This document shows, piece after piece, positions 1-10,460 of a stretch of 20,654 bases of DNA. The notes under the pieces were generated by a model that saw nothing but the letters and a program-made list of their open reading frames with translations, was not told where the DNA came from and did no database searches. The position numbers were made by a program, and so were the translations under genes. Every line of letters starts with the position of its first letter. Position 1 is the first letter of the stretch. The DNA is from a virus. The stretch covers positions 1 through 20,654 of the IMG/VR virus record IMGVR_UViG_3300006919_008388; one strand, written 5' to 3'.

Positions 1-447
1 ATCATCAACTACGTTGAACTACCCCCTGATACTATTACTGTCCCTATAAACTGGTATTTTTACGACACAACCTACGTATACACAACAGACACTTTAATTG
101 AATACTCTTACGAGTACGATATGGTAGAAGTTGATTGCGAAACAGGAAGCCCTTGTATAAGCCCATACGAAGGATGTGATATATACATACCTAATTCTTT
201 TACACCAGATAATGATGGTGTCAATGACTACTGGGGTGCATATACTGATGACAGCTGTTGGATATCTTGGATATTAAAAGTTTTTTCTAGAAGTGGTGAG
301 GTTGTTTGGGAGGGCTTTCATCCTGATGACATATGGATCGGAGGGGATGAATATTATTTACCTTCTGACGTTTATGTATATAGACTTCAGTGTGAGGGCT
401 ATGGAGAGTCCTATGTTATAAACGGTCATGTCTCTTTGATCCGATGA
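1..447 (+). CDS. C-terminal part of a surface/fibre protein with a type B T9SS (CHU_C) domain, partial
   Basis: The frame is open from base 1, so the gene begins left of the window; 148 codons are visible. Visible residues 1-40 are a Thr/Tyr/Asp-rich beta-type linker (DTTYVYTTDTL) of the kind that precedes sorting domains in Bacteroidota surface proteins. From about base 190 comes the hallmark IPNSFTPDNDGVND, then VFSRSGEVVWEG, a W-x-G segment, DVYVYRLQ and a terminal HVSLIR. This is the full layout of the gliding-motility-associated C-terminal (CHU_C, type B T9SS) domain, which normally directs export through the type IX system and attachment outside the cell. The stop overlaps the next start (ATGA), which places it in the phage operon rather than in a host flank. 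It may be a virion fibre that uses the domain as a beta-sandwich cap, or a protein exported from infected cells. The domain call is secure; the role is inferred. Confidence 0.88.
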   Translation: MINYVELPPDTITVPINWYFYDTTYVYTTDTLIEYSYEYDMVEVDCETGSPCISPYEGCDIYIPNSFTPDNDGVNDYWGAYTDDSCWISWILKVFSRSGEVVWEGFHPDDIWIGGDEYYLPSDVYVYRLQCEGYGESYVINGHVSLIR

Positions 448-1187
448 AGAGTGTTTGTTTTTTTATGGTCTATCACAAAAGGTTTTCTTTGACAAGAATG
501 TCAATATCGCACATGAGCGATGTCATAGAAGACTTTAAAAAAGATGGATTTGAAGCTACTGGAATTGTAATTGGTGACGACAAAAGACAAGAGGAGTTTT
601 GTTCTGACAGAGGAATAAAGCACTACATGTACCCTAACGATCCTCTTTCTTATAAGTTTCAGTTTTCATGGTTGACTTCTATTCACGCTCAAAAAGACTA
701 TATCTGTTGGATGGGCAGCAACAACCTTCATAGCCAGGAATATTGGGACAAGTGTAAAGAGAAGTTGTCTGGAAAAAAGACAGCTACGTTTGGGTCAAAT
801 AAGTTTGTTGTAATGAGTACTGACCCCAACAAAGATGAGACTTGCGTTTTCAATACAAGAGGAAAATATCTGGTTAGTTCTGGACAATTCTTCCTTACGT
901 ATTCTCTAGAAAATTCAGTAGACTTATTTAAGGTCTACAACAAGGATCAAACATTTGATTTTGACGGAAAAATTTTAGAGGAGATGACCAATAAGTGGGG
1001 GTGGGATATAATCGATTTGATATCAGAAGATCCAGAAGATTGTCTTGACATAAAAGACGATCTTAATATACATAGCTACGAATCTTATATTAGTAAAACT
1101 ATTTACCCTAGGTATCTAAAAAGATCAGAGTTAATTAAAAAATACGTTCGCTTGCAAGAGTTGATTCAAGGTAAGTACGATGAATGA
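444..1187 (+). CDS. Glycosyltransferase-like (GT-A type) protein
   Basis: 247 residues. The N-terminus (MVYHKRFSLTRMSISHM) followed by an amphipathic helix and GFEATGIVIGDD resembles the nucleotide-binding half of small GT-A glycosyltransferases, which open with a strand, an Arg/Ser-rich loop and a helix. DYICWMGSNNL at residues 85-95 sits where this fold has its metal-binding acidic motif (typically G-S-D-D), but here both acids are Asn. Other segments seen are LVSSGQFFL (143-151), FDFDGKILEEM (171-181) and LDIKDDLNIHSY (201-212). The start overlaps the CHU_C gene by 4 bases and the stop overlaps the terminase gene by 8, so the three are probably co-translated. It could glycosylate virion or host surface material, or be a fold relative without catalysis. 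The family call rests on pattern recognition only. Confidence 0.5.
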   Translation: MKSVCFFMVYHKRFSLTRMSISHMSDVIEDFKKDGFEATGIVIGDDKRQEEFCSDRGIKHYMYPNDPLSYKFQFSWLTSIHAQKDYICWMGSNNLHSQEYWDKCKEKLSGKKTATFGSNKFVVMSTDPNKDETCVFNTRGKYLVSSGQFFLTYSLENSVDLFKVYNKDQTFDFDGKILEEMTNKWGWDIIDLISEDPEDCLDIKDDLNIHSYESYISKTIYPRYLKRSELIKKYVRLQELIQGKYDE

Positions 1188-3279
1188 AGATGTTATTAAA
1201 ATTGATCCCAACGGTACGGAAGGAGAAATCATTGATGTCGGTGGACTACAGATTATGCTTCCCAAGAAGCCGCCGAAAAAAGAGATCCTCTTTAGCGAAA
1301 AAACCAAAGATCTGCAAATGTGGGAAAGGATACCTATGCCAAACGAGCTGCGTAGGATTAAGTCTATGGATGAGTGGGGGGAGATGCCAAGGGAATTCCG
1401 TGAACGTTTCAGTCCATACATCGAAAAAGAGTTTAGGCGTAGACGTGATGGCGTTTGGTTTTACAACAACGGTGTGCCTACGTACATTACAGGTAGACAC
1501 TACATGGCCCTACAATGGACCAAGTTCGACATAGGTTACCCTAATTTTCTTGACTTTCAAAGAAAAATATTTATACACCTGGCGGCATGTGAAGCGGACC
1601 AAAGATGTCTAGGACAGCTATATACTAAGTGCCGTAGAAGCGGATACACCAACATATGTTCTTCAGTAATTGTAGATGAGGCTTCTCAGGTTAAAGAAAA
1701 ACTTCTTGGAATACAAAGCAAGACGGGTAAAGACGCACAGGAAAATATATTTATGAAGAAGGTTGTTTCTATGTTTAGAAATTATCCATTCTTTTTTAAA
1801 CCTATTCAAGATGGAACCACAAACCCTAGAATGGAGCTGGCTTTTAGAGAGCCTTCAAAAAAGATTACAAAGAAAAACAAAACAGCTCAGGTCGGGGATG
1901 CTCTTAACACAGTAATTAATTGGAAAAACACCACTAACAATGCGTATGACGGTGAAAAACTTCACATGTTATACTTAGACGAAGCAGGAAAATGGGAAAA
2001 ACCTACAGACATAAGAGACGCCTGGAGGATTCAGAGGACATGTTTGATAGTCGGGCGAAAAGTAATCGGAAAGGCGCTCGTAGGAAGCACCGTAAATCCA
2101 ATGAACAAAGGTGGAAAGGAGTACAAGGACCTATGGGAGGACTCGAATCCTATGGAGAGGAATTCGAATGGGAGGACTAGATCTGGGCTGTATAGGCTTT
2201 TTATTCCAGCTCAAGAATCATTAGAGGGCTTCTTTGATAAATATGGAAATCCAGTGTCAGAAGACCCACCTGATATTGTAGAGGGGTTAGACGGTGAGGG
2301 GATATCTATTGGGGCTAAGACGTATTTAAAGAATGAAAGAGAAGCTTTTAAGCAACAGCCATCTGAACTCAATGAGATTATAAGGCAATTTCCTTTTACC
2401 ACAGACGAGGCGTTTAGAGACAGCATAGAAGGAAGTCTGTTTAATATCGGTCAGATATATGAACAGATAGATCACAACGACAACTTATTCCCTAACCCAG
2501 TTGTACAAGGAAATTTTGTATGGAAAGAAGGTCAAAAGGACACAGAGGTGCTTTTTAGGTCAGACCCTACTGGGAGATTTTACGTCTCTTGGCTACCCCC
2601 TAAGCATCTAAGAAACATTAAAAAGGAGTCATATGGAAAATTAATAGCTCCGAACGACATTATCGGATGTGGTGGAGTTGACAGCTACGATATAGACGCT
2701 ACGGTAGACGGGAGAGGATCTAAAGGTGCACTCCATATGTACAACAAATTTCACATGGAGCATCCTTCAAACATGTTTGTTGTGGAGTATGCGTCTCGAC
2801 CTCCGTTAGCTAAAATATTTTATGAAGACGTATTGATGTGTGCTTTTTTCTATGGATACCCTCTTCTTATTGAGAATAATAAATACGGAATAGCTAGGTA
2901 CTTTGAAGAAAGGGGCTATGACGGATATCTTTTAGATAGGCCTAATCACCTTAAAGTTCCTGGGTCTACATCAAATGTTCGGACAAAAGGAGTTCCTTCT
3001 AACTCTAATGACGTTATTCATTCCCATGCTCAATCTATTGAAGCTTATATACACAACCACGTAGGTATAAACAGAGAAACAGGAGATACAGGAAAAATGT
3101 ATTTCAATAGAACCCTAGAGGACTGGATAGGATTTAAAATAACAGATAGAACTAAATACGACCTCACTATTTCTTCTGGTCTTGCTCTTTTAGCGGCTCA
3201 AAAAGAAAAAACAAAAGAGGCTGCAAACTTTTCAGAAAAGAAGTTTTTTAGAAGACATAAGCCTATACGCAGAGTTTAA
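1180..3279 (+). CDS. terL: Terminase large subunit (packaging ATPase/nuclease)
   Basis: 699 residues, the usual size for long terminases of crAss-like and related phages. The motor docks on the portal, pumps DNA into the prohead with ATP, and cuts the concatemer. The N-terminal ATPase domain has a P-loop-like segment at 149-157 (TKCRRSGYT), a Walker B strand with acidic pair at 263-268 (MLYLDE; D267, E268) and a coupling motif at 302-304 (GST). The C-terminal RNase H-like nuclease domain follows: GGVDSYDID (D501, D504) as first acidic strand, LLIENN (E565) as second, and TKYDLTISSGLAL (D661) as a likely third. The P-loop lacks the usual Gly-Lys-Ser/Thr ending. The start was taken at 1180 because it overlaps the previous stop by 8 bases, like other coupled genes here. 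The stop codon lies next to the promoter box of the portal gene. Confidence 0.88.
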   Translation: MNEDVIKIDPNGTEGEIIDVGGLQIMLPKKPPKKEILFSEKTKDLQMWERIPMPNELRRIKSMDEWGEMPREFRERFSPYIEKEFRRRRDGVWFYNNGVPTYITGRHYMALQWTKFDIGYPNFLDFQRKIFIHLAACEADQRCLGQLYTKCRRSGYTNICSSVIVDEASQVKEKLLGIQSKTGKDAQENIFMKKVVSMFRNYPFFFKPIQDGTTNPRMELAFREPSKKITKKNKTAQVGDALNTVINWKNTTNNAYDGEKLHMLYLDEAGKWEKPTDIRDAWRIQRTCLIVGRKVIGKALVGSTVNPMNKGGKEYKDLWEDSNPMERNSNGRTRSGLYRLFIPAQESLEGFFDKYGNPVSEDPPDIVEGLDGEGISIGAKTYLKNEREAFKQQPSELNEIIRQFPFTTDEAFRDSIEGSLFNIGQIYEQIDHNDNLFPNPVVQGNFVWKEGQKDTEVLFRSDPTGRFYVSWLPPKHLRNIKKESYGKLIAPNDIIGCGGVDSYDIDATVDGRGSKGALHMYNKFHMEHPSNMFVVEYASRPPLAKIFYEDVLMCAFFYGYPLLIENNKYGIARYFEERGYDGYLLDRPNHLKVPGSTSNVRTKGVPSNSNDVIHSHAQSIEAYIHNHVGINRETGDTGKMYFNRTLEDWIGFKITDRTKYDLTISSGLALLAAQKEKTKEAANFSEKKFFRRHKPIRRV

Positions 3280-6194: not shown

Positions 6195-8348
6195 ATGTCT
6201 TCTATAAACGTTACCTCTCCATCTACATTAAATGTAAATATAACTTCTTCTGGATCAAACAGAGTTAATGTTTCTTCATCTAGTCCTGAAAACGACTTAG
6301 AGATAATTTCCAGTGGGTTTTCTGGTCAAAGAGGATCCACAGGAGTCACTGGTCCTACTGGTGCCACAGGTGCCACAGGTGTTGGTGCGACTGGTGCTAC
6401 TGGTCCGACGGGCCCCACTGGACCCACGGGGGCTACTGGAGCTGATTCTACGGTTGCAGGCCCCACGGGTCCCACGGGTCCCACGGGCTCCACAGGCCCT
6501 ACAGGCGCTACGGGTGCAGCAGGCACGAACGGTACGGATGGAGCTACTGGTCCCACTGGCCAAACAGGTCCGACGGGCCCCACGGGAGCCGCAGGCACAA
6601 ACGGGACCAATGGCGAGGACGGAGTCACAGGCCCAACTGGCCCCACTGGACCCACTGGACCGACAGGTGCTGCAGGCACGAACGGTACCGACGGAGCCAC
6701 TGGACCGACAGGCCCTACAGGCCCCACAGGCGCTACAGGTGCGGCTGGAGCTGATTCTACGGTTGCAGGTCCAACAGGCCCTACTGGCGCTACAGGCGCT
6801 ACGGGCGCGGCTGGCACTAATGGAACAAACGGTGTTGACGGAGCTGATGGAGTGACTGGCCCCACAGGTCCTACTGGTGCATCTGGCACAAACGGCACTA
6901 ATGGTGTTACAGGCGCTACGGGACCAACTGGTCCAACGGGGGCTGCTGGAACAAACGGAACAAACGGCACTGACGGAGCCACGGGAGCCACGGGTCCGAC
7001 TGGTCCGACAGGTGCCGCAGGCACGAATGGCACTAATGGAGTAGACGGAGCTACAGGCCCAACAGGCCCGACTGGACCTACTGGGGCTGCGGGATCCAAT
7101 GGAACAAACGGTACTGATGGAGCTACAGGCCCTACGGGTGCTACAGGTCCGACTGGTGCTGCAGGTACGAACGGCACCAATGGTACCGACGGAGCCACGG
7201 GAGCCACGGGACCCACGGGTCCGACGGGTGCTGCAGGTACAAATGGCACCAATGGTGGCGATGGATCCACAGGGGCTACTGGCCCTACGGGCCCTACGGG
7301 TGCCGCTGGTGCAGACTCTACTGTAGCAGGTCCGACTGGTCCGACTGGTCCGACTGGTCCGACAGGTGCTGGGGTTACTGGTCCGACGGGACCTACTGGC
7401 CCATCAGGAACAATACTAAACTACGCCCGTCTTAGGATGAGTAGCACCGTCCTTAATGGAGGCGCTAGTGCTCAGGACTTTAACAGCACGACTTATGTGG
7501 TGGCTAAGTTTGACGTGGAAGAAGACAACGAGGGTACAGAGCTAACAAGCGACACGGTAACAGACAATAAGATTACTGTAGCAAGCGCTGGTCACTATAG
7601 GATGTCAGCAGCTATAACATTTACGTCGTCATCTGCGCGTGTTACCCCCTCAGTTTCATTTAACATTAATCAAGTTAGGATTATTGGTGAGGCGTATGGA
7701 TACATTCGTGCGACAAACGGGCAGAACGAAAATGCTTGTAACATTACTAGAGTTATAGCCCTTAGTGCTGGCGATGAGATACAGGTATGTGCTCACGATA
7801 CATCTACTGTAAATGGATCTTGCTTTGCTGTTGAGGCAATCTTTGAGGTTGAAAAACTAGCCCCTGGAATAGTGGGGGCTACAGGAGCGACAGGGCCAAC
7901 GGGTCCAGCAGCGGGCTTAGCAGGGGAAGTTCTTGAAATAGAGCTATCAGATGTAGCCTTAACAAACGGAGTTTATGAGGGTCTCATAATGAAGTATGGG
8001 TCTTCTACTTTGTCTAGTACTGTTGGAAAAGTTTATGTCTACACATCTAGCGGATGGTCTGCAGCCGATGCATCAGCGGCGTCCACTACAAAAGGAACTC
8101 TCGGGTTGAATCTAGGAACTAACTCAGGAACGGATGGGTTGATTACCCAGGGGTTTATAACAACAAGCGCTTACAACACTGCTGGCTGGACAGCTGGAGA
8201 TGTTTTATACTTAGACGTTAACGCTGAGCAAATGACAAATGATGTTTCTTCATTTGTCCAGAACGATTGCGTTAGGGTGTTAGGGCAATACATTGGTTCA
8301 GGATTGGTGCACTTTAATCCATCAGCTGACTACATTGAACTTGCGTAA
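6195..8348 (+). CDS. Collagen-like phage fibre with C1q-like C-terminal domain(s)
   Basis: 717 residues. Residues 1-43 are Ser/Asn/Val-rich beta-type sequence, probably the attachment end. Residues 44-405 are about 120 almost uninterrupted Gly-X-Y triplets, mostly [12 protein letters not shown] and GTD, which should form a bacterial-type collagen triple helix. Thr in the Y position replaces hydroxyproline. Residues about 408-555 form a beta-rich domain ([34 protein letters not shown]) like C1q/TNF trimerising heads. A short second Gly-X-Y segment ([11 protein letters not shown]) follows, and residues about 580-717 form another beta domain ending in [25 protein letters not shown]-type sequence common in phage fibres. 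The protein should be a trimeric rod with globular tips used for adsorption. It lies directly after the BppU-like adaptor and abuts the propeller gene (TAATG). Confidence 0.85.
6324..7409 (+). repeat. Gly-X-Y coding repeat (collagen-like), GC-rich
   Basis: A run of 9-base codon triplets GGN-CCN-ACN, GGN-GCN-ACN and GGN-ACN-AAY inside the fibre gene, clearly richer in G and C than the flanks. A super-repeat of the type [21 protein letters not shown] recurs many times, and the interruption ADSTVAG occurs three times (nucleotides near 6441, 6750 and 7311). Third codon positions are widely scrambled, so DNA identity is low although the peptide is uniform. The exception is 7329-7364, where GGTCCGACT is repeated three times exactly and a fourth time with one change. 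Confidence 0.9.
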
Positions 8349-9634
8349 TGCCAGATATAAACGGATACAACGGAATCGACATGGCAAACATTGCATCTAT
8401 AAATGGACAAACTGTAGAAACAGGAGGAGGCGGTTATGCTACATCAACAACAGGTCTTCTTGTTTGGGGCTATGATGGCGCTCCGAGTGAACCAATTTCC
8501 GCTGACTTGTTTGTAGGGGGTGCACCCCCTCCATCTAGCTATCAAGTATGGACTGGAAGTAGTTACCCTGTAAAGAAAATGGATTTTACAAGGTATGGTA
8601 GCTACATCCTTGATACAAACGGAGACTTATATAGTGCTTCTCCAAGCACTAGTTATAACTACATTGGCAGGAATTCTAGCACTGGCAGTGCTACAAGTTT
8701 TCAATTAGCAAGAACAGGTGTAGATGATATGGCTGCAACTATTCAAGGGTGCATAACGATTGAATCTGGTGAATTGCACTACACTGGTGCTAACATGAGG
8801 TACTACCTCGGTACCACAGTGAACTCATATCAAACCTGGACTCAGCTTGGAACCGACACAGACTGGATCTCTATTGATACTCAGACTGCTTTTCCTTACG
8901 GAGTAGCTGCAGTTAAAGGACCAACTGCTACTACAGGAAAGCTATACGTTAGTGGGTACCATAATAATGGTAGGCTTGGAAACGGCCTTACAAGTGGAAC
9001 TACAGAAACACCCGCCTTAAGCAAAACAGATGCTACAACAAATTTTGAAGAGTTTGTAGCTCGAGTTTCTTTTGGTCAGCACAACCTAGGTGTTGTTACG
9101 CAAAGTGGCGAATTCTATACCACTGGGTGGGGAAACTATGGAAATACAGGAAGCGGAGTTTCAACTAATAATATATACATGACGCAAATTGGCACTGACA
9201 CAAACTGGGAGTCGTGTTGGATGGGAAACTTTGGGGGAATCGCTATTAAAGGTGGCCAGCTCTATGGCTCATCATCTAGTACATCCTATCTAAGAATTTA
9301 TACTGGAATGACCGCAAATAGAACATTTCAACTTATTAATAGTGACACTGATTGGGAAGAGATACAGGGCTTCAGATTTACATATACTTACGATGGCGAC
9401 TTCCAAGGTTGCTTATTTAAAAAGAACGGTGTCTGGGGAATTCAAGCTAGGAACGATGGGTGGAATGGAGATAAAGTAGATAACGATACGATGAATTCAT
9501 TTACCTCATTTCAAGATGCAACAAAAATCACAAATGCAATTGGTTCAGGATTGACTGTAGATCATGCAGGTATAATATACAATCAACAAAGTCCTAACTC
9601 ACAAAAGGTAGGCATTGTACTTCACGTAAGATAA
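8348..9634 (+). CDS. RCC1-like beta-propeller fibre protein
   Basis: 428 residues, starting at the ATG of TAATG shared with the previous stop. The N-terminus (INGYNGIDMANIASINGQTV) is a short repetitive segment often seen at the base of marine phage fibres. The body has regularly spaced blades with a Gly-x-Leu/Phe-Tyr strand and a following Gly: GDLYSA (92), GELHYTG (141), GKLYVSGYHNNGRLGNG (197-213), GEFYTTGWGNYGNTGSG (254-270), GQLYGSS (303). Between them are DTDW / DTNW / DTDW turns (about 170, 284, 334). That is the repeat pattern of RCC1-type seven-bladed propellers. Propellers in phage fibres usually present variable loops for receptor or glycan binding, so a receptor-binding or fibre-tip role is inferred. 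It follows the collagen-like fibre and precedes a small acidic protein. No signal peptide was seen. Confidence 0.7.
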   Translation: MPDINGYNGIDMANIASINGQTVETGGGGYATSTTGLLVWGYDGAPSEPISADLFVGGAPPPSSYQVWTGSSYPVKKMDFTRYGSYILDTNGDLYSASPSTSYNYIGRNSSTGSATSFQLARTGVDDMAATIQGCITIESGELHYTGANMRYYLGTTVNSYQTWTQLGTDTDWISIDTQTAFPYGVAAVKGPTATTGKLYVSGYHNNGRLGNGLTSGTTETPALSKTDATTNFEEFVARVSFGQHNLGVVTQSGEFYTTGWGNYGNTGSGVSTNNIYMTQIGTDTNWESCWMGNFGGIAIKGGQLYGSSSSTSYLRIYTGMTANRTFQLINSDTDWEEIQGFRFTYTYDGDFQGCLFKKNGVWGIQARNDGWNGDKVDNDTMNSFTSFQDATKITNAIGSGLTVDHAGIIYNQQSPNSQKVGIVLHVR

Positions 9635-9888
9635 TGGCAAGCTATACAATAACAATATCCTCAGAGGAAGATCTGCAAGAGTTTTGGTACGATGCCAGCG
9701 CTCCGAATTTTTCTTTTTCTTATAATGAGCAGTCTTTAGAAGAGTGTTCTCAACAAGGAGATGGGACTTGGACAGCAACGTATGAAACAATAGAGCTAAC
9801 TGAGATAAGCACGTTCACTTATCTTGTTGATGGCTCTTCAGACACAACGATTACTTTATATCCAGGAGAGTATGGCGTAAAGCCTTGA
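9634..9888 (+). CDS. Small acidic protein of the fibre cassette, unknown function
   Basis: 84 residues, starting at a TAATG overlap with the propeller gene. The sequence alternates short polar strands (YTITISSEEDL, SFSYNEQSL, GTWTATYETIEL, STFTYLVDGSS, TTITLYPGEYGV) and is acidic, suggesting one small beta-sandwich. I do not recognise the family. Position directly after a fibre gene and tight coupling suggest a fibre-associated part such as a cap, an assembly factor or a small decoration subunit. It is the last gene before the second promoter box, so it ends a transcription unit of portal and fibre genes. The absence of membrane segments or catalytic motifs gives no further hint. Confidence 0.6.
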   Translation: MASYTITISSEEDLQEFWYDASAPNFSFSYNEQSLEECSQQGDGTWTATYETIELTEISTFTYLVDGSSDTTITLYPGEYGVKP

Positions 9889-9923
9889 CATTAGTCTCAC
9901 TAAAACTCTTATTGTTTTGTTTT

Positions 9924-9931
9924 TATATTTG
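9924..9931 (+). promoter_or_regulatory. Bacteroidota-type -7 promoter box before the small-basic-protein cluster
   Basis: TATATTTG, then CATTT and the ATG at 9937. It matches TAnnTTTG and lies in the only gap (about 48 bases, T-rich) between the fibre genes and the small genes. With only five bases between box and start codon, a transcript begun at the usual distance would be leaderless or nearly so. No TTG at normal -33 spacing was found. Confidence 0.75.
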
Positions 9932-9936
9932 CATTT

Positions 9937-10245
9937 ATGAAATGTAAAAAATCTTACAAATCTGGGGGGAAAACTCCTGCATGGACTAGGAAAGAGGGGA
10001 AGAACCCTTCTGGAGGCCTGAATAAAAAAGGTGTTGCTTCATATCGACGAGCAAATCCTGGTAGCAAACTTAAAACAGCGGTTACTACAAAGCCTTCTAA
10101 ACTTAAAAAGGGAAGCAAAGCTGCATCTAGAAGAAAGTCTTTTTGTGCAAGAATGACAGGCATGAAGAAAAGAAGAACTAGCGCTAAAACCGCCCGCGAC
10201 CCAAACTCACGAATAAATAAATCACTTAAAAAGTGGAACTGCTAA
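9937..10245 (+). CDS. Small Lys/Arg-rich phage protein (DUF6321-like)
   Basis: 102 residues with 23 Lys and 10 Arg against one Glu and one Asp. Motifs PAWTRKEGKNPSGGLN (14-29), GVASYRRANPGSKLKTAV (32-49), CARMTGMKKR (70-79) and SAKTARDPNSRINKSL (82-97) match a family found in many aquatic phages that I recall as DUF6321. Its function is unknown. The strong positive charge, scattered Gly-Lys segments and three Cys suggest nucleic-acid contact, for example an internal virion protein that neutralises packaged DNA. The start is an ATG five bases after the promoter box, without Shine-Dalgarno sequence. It heads a five-gene coupled set. The family resemblance is clear; the role is inference. Confidence 0.75.
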   Translation: MKCKKSYKSGGKTPAWTRKEGKNPSGGLNKKGVASYRRANPGSKLKTAVTTKPSKLKKGSKAASRRKSFCARMTGMKKRRTSAKTARDPNSRINKSLKKWNC

Positions 10246-10460
10246 TGATAAACCCTGACGCCCTTACACAGTTTGAGCTGCTTACTATGGTTGGCGCCTT
10301 AATAGGAATGTGGTTAAAATTTCAAAACGATTTTACGACCTTGAAGTCTAGAGTCAAGGTTTTGGAGATGGATCACGGCGATCTCAAGGCAAACATTGAA
10401 ACCCTGCTTAAAGAGCTTCAAGAGATTAAGCTTTTGCTTGCAAAAAACCAAGTGCAGTGA
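10245..10460 (+). CDS. Small membrane/coiled-coil protein, possible holin or membrane anchor
   Basis: 71 residues from ATG 10245, which overlaps the previous stop (TAATG); a GTG at 10233 would extend into the upstream gene and was not used. Residues 10-26 (FELLTMVGALIGMWLKF) form one hydrophobic helix, followed by a heptad-patterned helix from about 30 to 66 (FTTLKSRVKVLEMDHGDL, then ETLLKELQEIKLLL). This layout, one membrane helix plus a coiled coil, occurs in small XhlA-type holin accessories and in many phage membrane proteins. Here it sits among DNA-binding-like small proteins rather than beside a visible endolysin gene, so a holin role is only a possibility. An oligomeric membrane anchor is the alternative. 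Confidence 0.6.
   Translation: MINPDALTQFELLTMVGALIGMWLKFQNDFTTLKSRVKVLEMDHGDLKANIETLLKELQEIKLLLAKNQVQ

Follow-up and report, generated by a model that had tools for sequence, protein, structure and literature searches.

A candidate type IX secretion cargo family in marine Bacteroidota phages, encoded in part upstream of the terminase gene

The window, by which we mean the whole 20,654-base stretch analyzed here (IMG/VR virus record IMGVR_UViG_3300006919_008388), begins inside a gene for a protein that ends in a type B sorting domain of the type IX secretion system (T9SS). Frame 1 of the + strand has no stop from base 1 until 445-447 and gives 148 amino acids; the 5' edge of the record lies within this gene, hereafter the cargo gene, and only the end of a stalk and the C-terminal domain (CTD) are visible. 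Because the record begins mid-gene, the N-terminus was taken from other contigs. An overlapping chain from the cargo gene through the next gene to terminase had been proposed in the original prediction, and it is present as described: an open reading frame (ORF) of 247 amino acids starts at 444, forming an ATGA overlap with the cargo gene stop, terminase starts at 1180, and a portal gene follows. The features of the locus are:

1..447, + strand: 3' part of the candidate T9SS cargo gene (last 148 codons and stop); the record does not include the 5' part, which was read from the near-identical locus L003 (9176 or 9212 to 10447)
1..183, + strand: DT-rich stalk end with three D-[ST]-[AILVMT] sequons (DTI, DTT, DTL)
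43..75, + strand: PINWYFYDTTY stalk motif, invariant as protein, with variable codons among the aligned relatives
184..444, + strand: type B T9SS sorting domain (CHU_C / TIGR04131) with the C-terminal end ...SLIR
444..1187, + strand: ORF of 247 amino acids, 4-bp overlap with the cargo gene; accessory, since only some relatives have it
1180..3279, + strand: terminase large subunit (phrog_6681, E 4.6e-203), overlapping the 247-amino acid ORF

The assignment of a CHU_C-type sorting domain to positions 1-447, made in the original prediction, was borne out by profile searches. Residues 62-133 of the window match Pfam PF13585 (CHU_C) with 40.5 bits (E 3e-10, cut-off 27), and residues 62-148 match NCBIfam TIGR04131 over profile positions 2-85 of 85 with 33.8-34.5 bits (E 2.8e-8), slightly below the cut-off of 35. 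Type B secretion requires five conserved CTD motifs, A-E, and the domain of the window is a divergent subtype in which NRWG has become SRSG and WDG has become WIGG. TIGR04131 was matched by all aligned relatives (24/24), several of them above the cut-off (L013 48.0, L033 45.6 and L019 45.5 bits). CHU_C sits at the exact C-terminus of every member that is complete there, and an [FLVI]-R ending was found in 47 of 48 distinct C-termini with CHU_C, the remaining one being cut by a contig end. The Pfam and TIGR04131 scores, the 24 relatives and the terminal position rule out, at the level of sequence, a chance match or a generic immunoglobulin (Ig)-fold match.

A structural model of the full-length protein was of low confidence (mean predicted local distance difference test score, pLDDT, 55.6), with the sorting domain better modeled (mostly 66-84 by block). 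The sorting-domain model aligned with T9SS substrates from structures of the translocon (8glk: Z 8.0, root-mean-square deviation 2.3, 73/75 residues; 8gl8: Z 7.6) and with the CTDs of NucA, RemZ, PorZ, RgpB and mirolase (Z 7.2-8.2 over 70-88 residues; PorZ 5m11, Z 8.2). Since the same model scores up to Z 9 with unrelated beta-sandwiches, beta-glucuronidase domains among them, the fold match is unspecific and supports identity as a T9SS CTD without proving it. That such beta-sandwiches equal T9SS CTDs in this comparison also speaks for a virion fiber or decoration protein, in which CHU_C would be a borrowed beta-sandwich assembled into particles in the cytoplasm, as the original prediction had offered as an alternative; phage particles often bear Ig-like folds, and the gene lies among packaging and connector genes.

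The complete N-termini bear on this question. A search of viral contigs yielded 36 loci, two of which are 100% identical across the stretch of the gene seen in the window. In L003 the protein consists of a signal peptide, a conserved domain of ~195 residues (N-domain), a D-T-x stalk and the CHU_C domain, in this order; with the shorter start the predicted signal peptide is MILLFILSVILKGFPMHAQ and the mature protein begins QCDLE. Sec signal peptides were called from hydropathy and the cleavage-site pattern. One is predicted in L003 and in all relatives with a complete N-terminus, the window itself being truncated, and the signal peptide that the original prediction had proposed to look for was thereby found. 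The glutamine directly after the predicted cleavage is invariant in 41/41 aligned sequences, in agreement with the glutamine rule (Q-rule) of Bacteroidota signal peptidase I substrates (PMC5837995, PMC10653852). The cleavage sites AQC, GQC and SQC do not fit a lipobox when compared with the known consensus. Sec signal peptides with Q-rule sites, the constant position of CHU_C at the extreme C-terminus, a PHROG search in which the cargo protein matched no virion family, and a presence beside terminase that varies among close relatives, as would not be expected of a core virion part, all disfavor a virion protein, which we regard as quite improbable.

Modeled alone, the N-domain reached a pLDDT of 66.2 and a predicted template modeling score of 0.70. 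Only weak fibronectin (FnIII)-like fold matches were obtained (best Z 5.1), which are not usable, and a sequence search of solved structures gave chance matches only (E 0.099). The stalk carries 5-20 copies of D-[ST]-[AILVMT], the Bacteroidota O-glycosylation motif (PMC12871550), versus shuffle means of 0.5-3.6, while the N-domain and the sorting domain have 0-1; duplication of repeat units may explain part of this excess, because the shuffles ignore repeat structure. Judging by the motif, the stalk threonines of D-T-x are probably O-glycosylated by the host. The amino acids of PINWYFYDTTY are invariant and its codons vary synonymously across the aligned relatives, which rules out a conserved DNA element behind it.

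The N-domain alignment comprises 78 viral contigs, and with three more from the first locus search the family counts 81 IMG/VR contigs. Across 84,980 species of bacteria and archaea, two scans prefiltered on short exact peptide patterns, which could miss remote relatives, found no relative. Neither did the plasmids searched contain one, and among 50,697 deposited phage records no relative of full length turned up; what matched there was the CTD alone, over short stretches, in records of uncultured or metagenomic phages. The BFVD viral protein UniProt A0A516LPX6 (397 amino acids; 55% identity to the N-domain), already deposited, belongs to the family. By these searches the N-domain is apparently virus-specific. 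The carriers of the family are marine viruses of Bacteroidota by indirect host assignment: terminase relatives with known hosts infect Flavobacterium, Cellulophaga, Maribacter and Tenacibaculum. The cargo family was found in at least five gene contexts, of which A and B make up most loci:

Context A: directly upstream of terminase, as in the window
Context B: between homologues of the window genes 16143 and 17007
Context C: a third backbone, between minus-strand genes, with the same terminase and portal families at L095
Context D: 110-kb contigs with queuosine and thymidylate synthase genes
Context E: L100 and L123

The genes upstream of the cargo gene in L003 and relatives are phage genes, not host chromosomal ones, and the claim that the gene belongs to the phage therefore held. 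Phage genes on both flanks in several backbones rule out a host chromosomal origin. Neither of the two observations that the original prediction had named as fatal to it, host genes upstream and a score like that of a generic Ig fold, was made. An assembly chimera or a host gene misplaced in a viral contig might be suspected from a record that begins inside a gene; it is already refuted by 81 contigs, from several backbones, in which phage genes flank the gene on either side, and we give it practically no weight.

Occupancy of the site upstream of terminase varies. Among the close terminase relatives listed that have enough upstream sequence, 4/67 matched the sorting-domain profile there, a rough frequency, as the listed sample was chosen through peptide patterns. 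The others have unrelated ORFs at this site, which by eye include GroEL-like, glycosyltransferase-like and small lipoprotein-like; a 519-codon frame reading like a GroEL-type chaperonin lies upstream of terminase in L141 (2405-3961), L142 (837-2393) and L143 (645-2201). L139 is without the cargo gene, and in L133 (2174-2305) only the last ~44 cargo codons are left, directly before the 247-amino acid gene, with both flanks aligning to L003; from this alignment, the remnant is a scar left by deletion or recombination. The same kind of stalk and sorting domain carries a divergent N-domain in L206 and a different N-terminal region in L004/L140. In the 110-kb contig L090 (2476-7425) the cargo gene adjoins a gene for an M43-type metalloprotease with a signal peptide, and a gene for a fasciclin-domain protein is found nearby among queuosine genes.

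N-domain and sorting domain differ strongly in conservation between the same pairs: L003 and L021 are 92% identical in the N-domain and 42% in the sorting domain, and for L003 and L013 the values are 85% and 41%. By these identities, a conserved N-domain joined to divergent sorting domains forms a mosaic display module. The capsid protein of the B-type phages is ~33% identical to that of the window, and since the N-domains of L013 and L003 are nonetheless 85% identical, gene transfer between distant phages is indicated. Nonsynonymous (dN) and synonymous (dS) divergence was 0.05 and 0.85 for the N-domain of L003/L008; N-domain pairs range over dN 0.03-0.16 versus dS 0.5-2 (where dS is estimable), and close pairs behave the same in the sorting domain. 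Because dN is well under dS, both domains are maintained by purifying selection. Published work describes specific pairing of type B sorting domains with PorP/SprF shuttles, possible cross-talk of similar CTDs and, for substrates without an adjacent shuttle gene, the use of a shuttle encoded elsewhere (PMC12618676, PMC9143113). As the CTDs are mosaic and CTD-shuttle pairing is specific, exchange of sorting domains could fit the cargo to the shuttles of different hosts; we put this forward as a hypothesis, the alternative being that the CTDs diverged without host matching.

From the sequence evidence as a whole we consider it very probable that the cargo protein is a phage-borne substrate exported through the host T9SS, and it would then be displayed on the surface of the infected cell. 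Sec would export the precursor and signal peptidase I would expose the glutamine; in the periplasm the host would probably O-glycosylate the D-T-x threonines of the stalk; the host SprA translocon would take the C-terminal type B domain and hand it to a host PorP/SprF-type shuttle, and the virus-specific N-terminal domain would be displayed outside on the glycosylated stalk. Late production is suggested, because the gene lies in the packaging/structural region. The surface of the infected cell would be altered in such a way that phage receptors are masked or occupied, superinfection is blocked and progeny is kept from sticking to spent cells. That receptor masking or superinfection control is the purpose is a guess, to which we would give somewhat less than an even chance, with adhesion as the main alternative.

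Several points weigh against this reading. These are the window's TIGR04131 score below cut-off and its altered motifs, the unusable fold matches of the N-domain, the possible share of repeat duplication in the sequon excess and the indirect assignment of hosts. In addition, a search of 18 phage records with TIGR03519 (PorP/SprF shuttle) gave no match, but its control was also silent, and type B fusions overproduced in F. johnsoniae needed an extra shuttle to be secreted (PMC12618676). The shuttle is expected to be supplied by the host. The divergent CTD motif of the window member and the lack of a phage-encoded shuttle in that search would also suit a protein whose Sec signal works but whose CTD goes unrecognized, so that it acts only in the periplasm or outer membrane, for example in lysis. 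Such a role would not need the CTD, which is under purifying selection and present in every complete member, and we hold it to be improbable.

Export through the T9SS could also serve the fitness or spread of the host, by adhesion, aggregation or attachment to particles or algae, which would make the gene a moron using the same route for another purpose. The movement of the gene among phage backbones at accessory sites, the fact that in L004/L140 this stalk and CTD bear another N-terminal region, and the metalloprotease neighbor in the 110-kb contigs are in line with this. However, the scanned bacterial genomes, with no relatives, give no sign of stable prophage residence, and the late-operon position leaves little time to benefit the host in a lytic infection; we see this purpose as possible but rather unlikely.

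In addition to the type B cargo, a type A (TIGR04183) protein is encoded in 9/26 records searched, in frames of ~700-910 residues, 8/9 of them over the cut-off; the type A module was not seen in the available part of the window phage. In three of these phages the type A cargo has ~800-895 amino acids with Cys-rich repeats, and the modules lie at:

L126, 4880-8982: type A module
L127, 5476-9848: type A module
L128, 3844-8223: type A module

In all three, the type A gene overlaps by 4 bp the gene for a protein of 344-345 amino acids with a signal peptide and a barrel-like C-terminus, a putative outer-membrane barrel by sequence, followed by a 94-amino acid protein and a 121-amino acid protein with weak thioredoxin similarity. 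In L127 (7167-9848), L128 (3844-6531, phrog_7595) and L129 (9594-12272) the type A ORF continues in frame from a phage protein domain that precedes it; fused in this way, its signal peptide would be internal unless an internal ATG start is used. In L126 and L026 the type A gene begins directly with the signal peptide. Taking type B export as the preferred reading, one could imagine a shared display module with an N-terminal effector, an O-glycosylated stalk and exchanged, host-matched type B domains that closes the surface to other phages late in infection, in some phages beside type A cargo and a phage-encoded outer-membrane barrel. This complete picture is tentative, and we would sooner expect parts of it to fail than all of it to hold.

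With regard to neighboring genes, the 247-amino acid ORF was considered as a glycosyltransferase of the stalk, given its likeness by eye to a GT-A-type nucleotide-sugar enzyme. This was rejected: family searches gave no significant match, few relatives have the ORF, and it also occurs without the cargo gene. A 717-amino acid ORF in the structural region of the window (6195-8348) contains long collagen-like GPTGPTG repeats. Genes for tRNA-Ile (tat) and tRNA-Arg (tct) are found on the flanks of the cargo gene in L080 (7457-7764), L118 (7539-7842) and L025 (9116-9190); tRNA-linked integration was dropped, as tRNAs stand beside some loci only.

Placement of small lipoproteins in the outer membrane is known from other phages. 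If export holds true, the phages described here use the signature secretion system of the phylum to put a protein of their own on the infected cell, and superinfection control in marine phages of Bacteroidota would gain a concrete candidate in this family. Its members, matched as cargo but different in their type B domains, would also form a natural set for studying what decides CTD-shuttle pairing, an open question of the T9SS field.

The original prediction had taken display of a phage protein through the T9SS to be new, which in principle it is not: type A T9SS cargo is known from Cryophage (2020; PMC7468147) and T9SS domains from crAss-like phages (2019; PMC6949934). Bellas et al. (2020) described three T9SS type A cargo proteins in Cryophage and, for these phage-encoded sorting-domain proteins, proposed a hijack of the host T9SS for secretion, competition or superinfection exclusion (PMC7468147). 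There, type A domains sit on enzyme-like cargo (endoglucanase, GH39, PA14) in one phage pan-genome, whereas the present family is type B, with an apparently virus-specific N-domain and a sequon-rich stalk, in many phages and several backbones. In crAss-like phages T9SS sorting-domain proteins likewise lie near head genes of Bacteroidota phages, but the domains were mentioned in passing together with BACON domains and no common N-terminal domain was shown (PMC6949934). P. gingivalis phages have Q-rule signal peptides on phage proteins, suggesting envelope modification, but no T9SS domain was described (PMC10367356). Among bacterial substrates, SprB, Fjoh_3952 and the orphans Fjoh_1123, 1720 and 4934 of F. 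johnsoniae also combine a Sec signal peptide with a TIGR04131 CTD (PMC12618676, PMC9143113), and the orphans resemble the phage cargo in having no adjacent shuttle gene; these substrates are chromosomal, whereas the phage N-domain was not found in the bacterial genomes scanned. In comparison with these systems, what is new is a dedicated, apparently virus-specific type B family that extends over several phage backbones and carries mosaic sorting domains.
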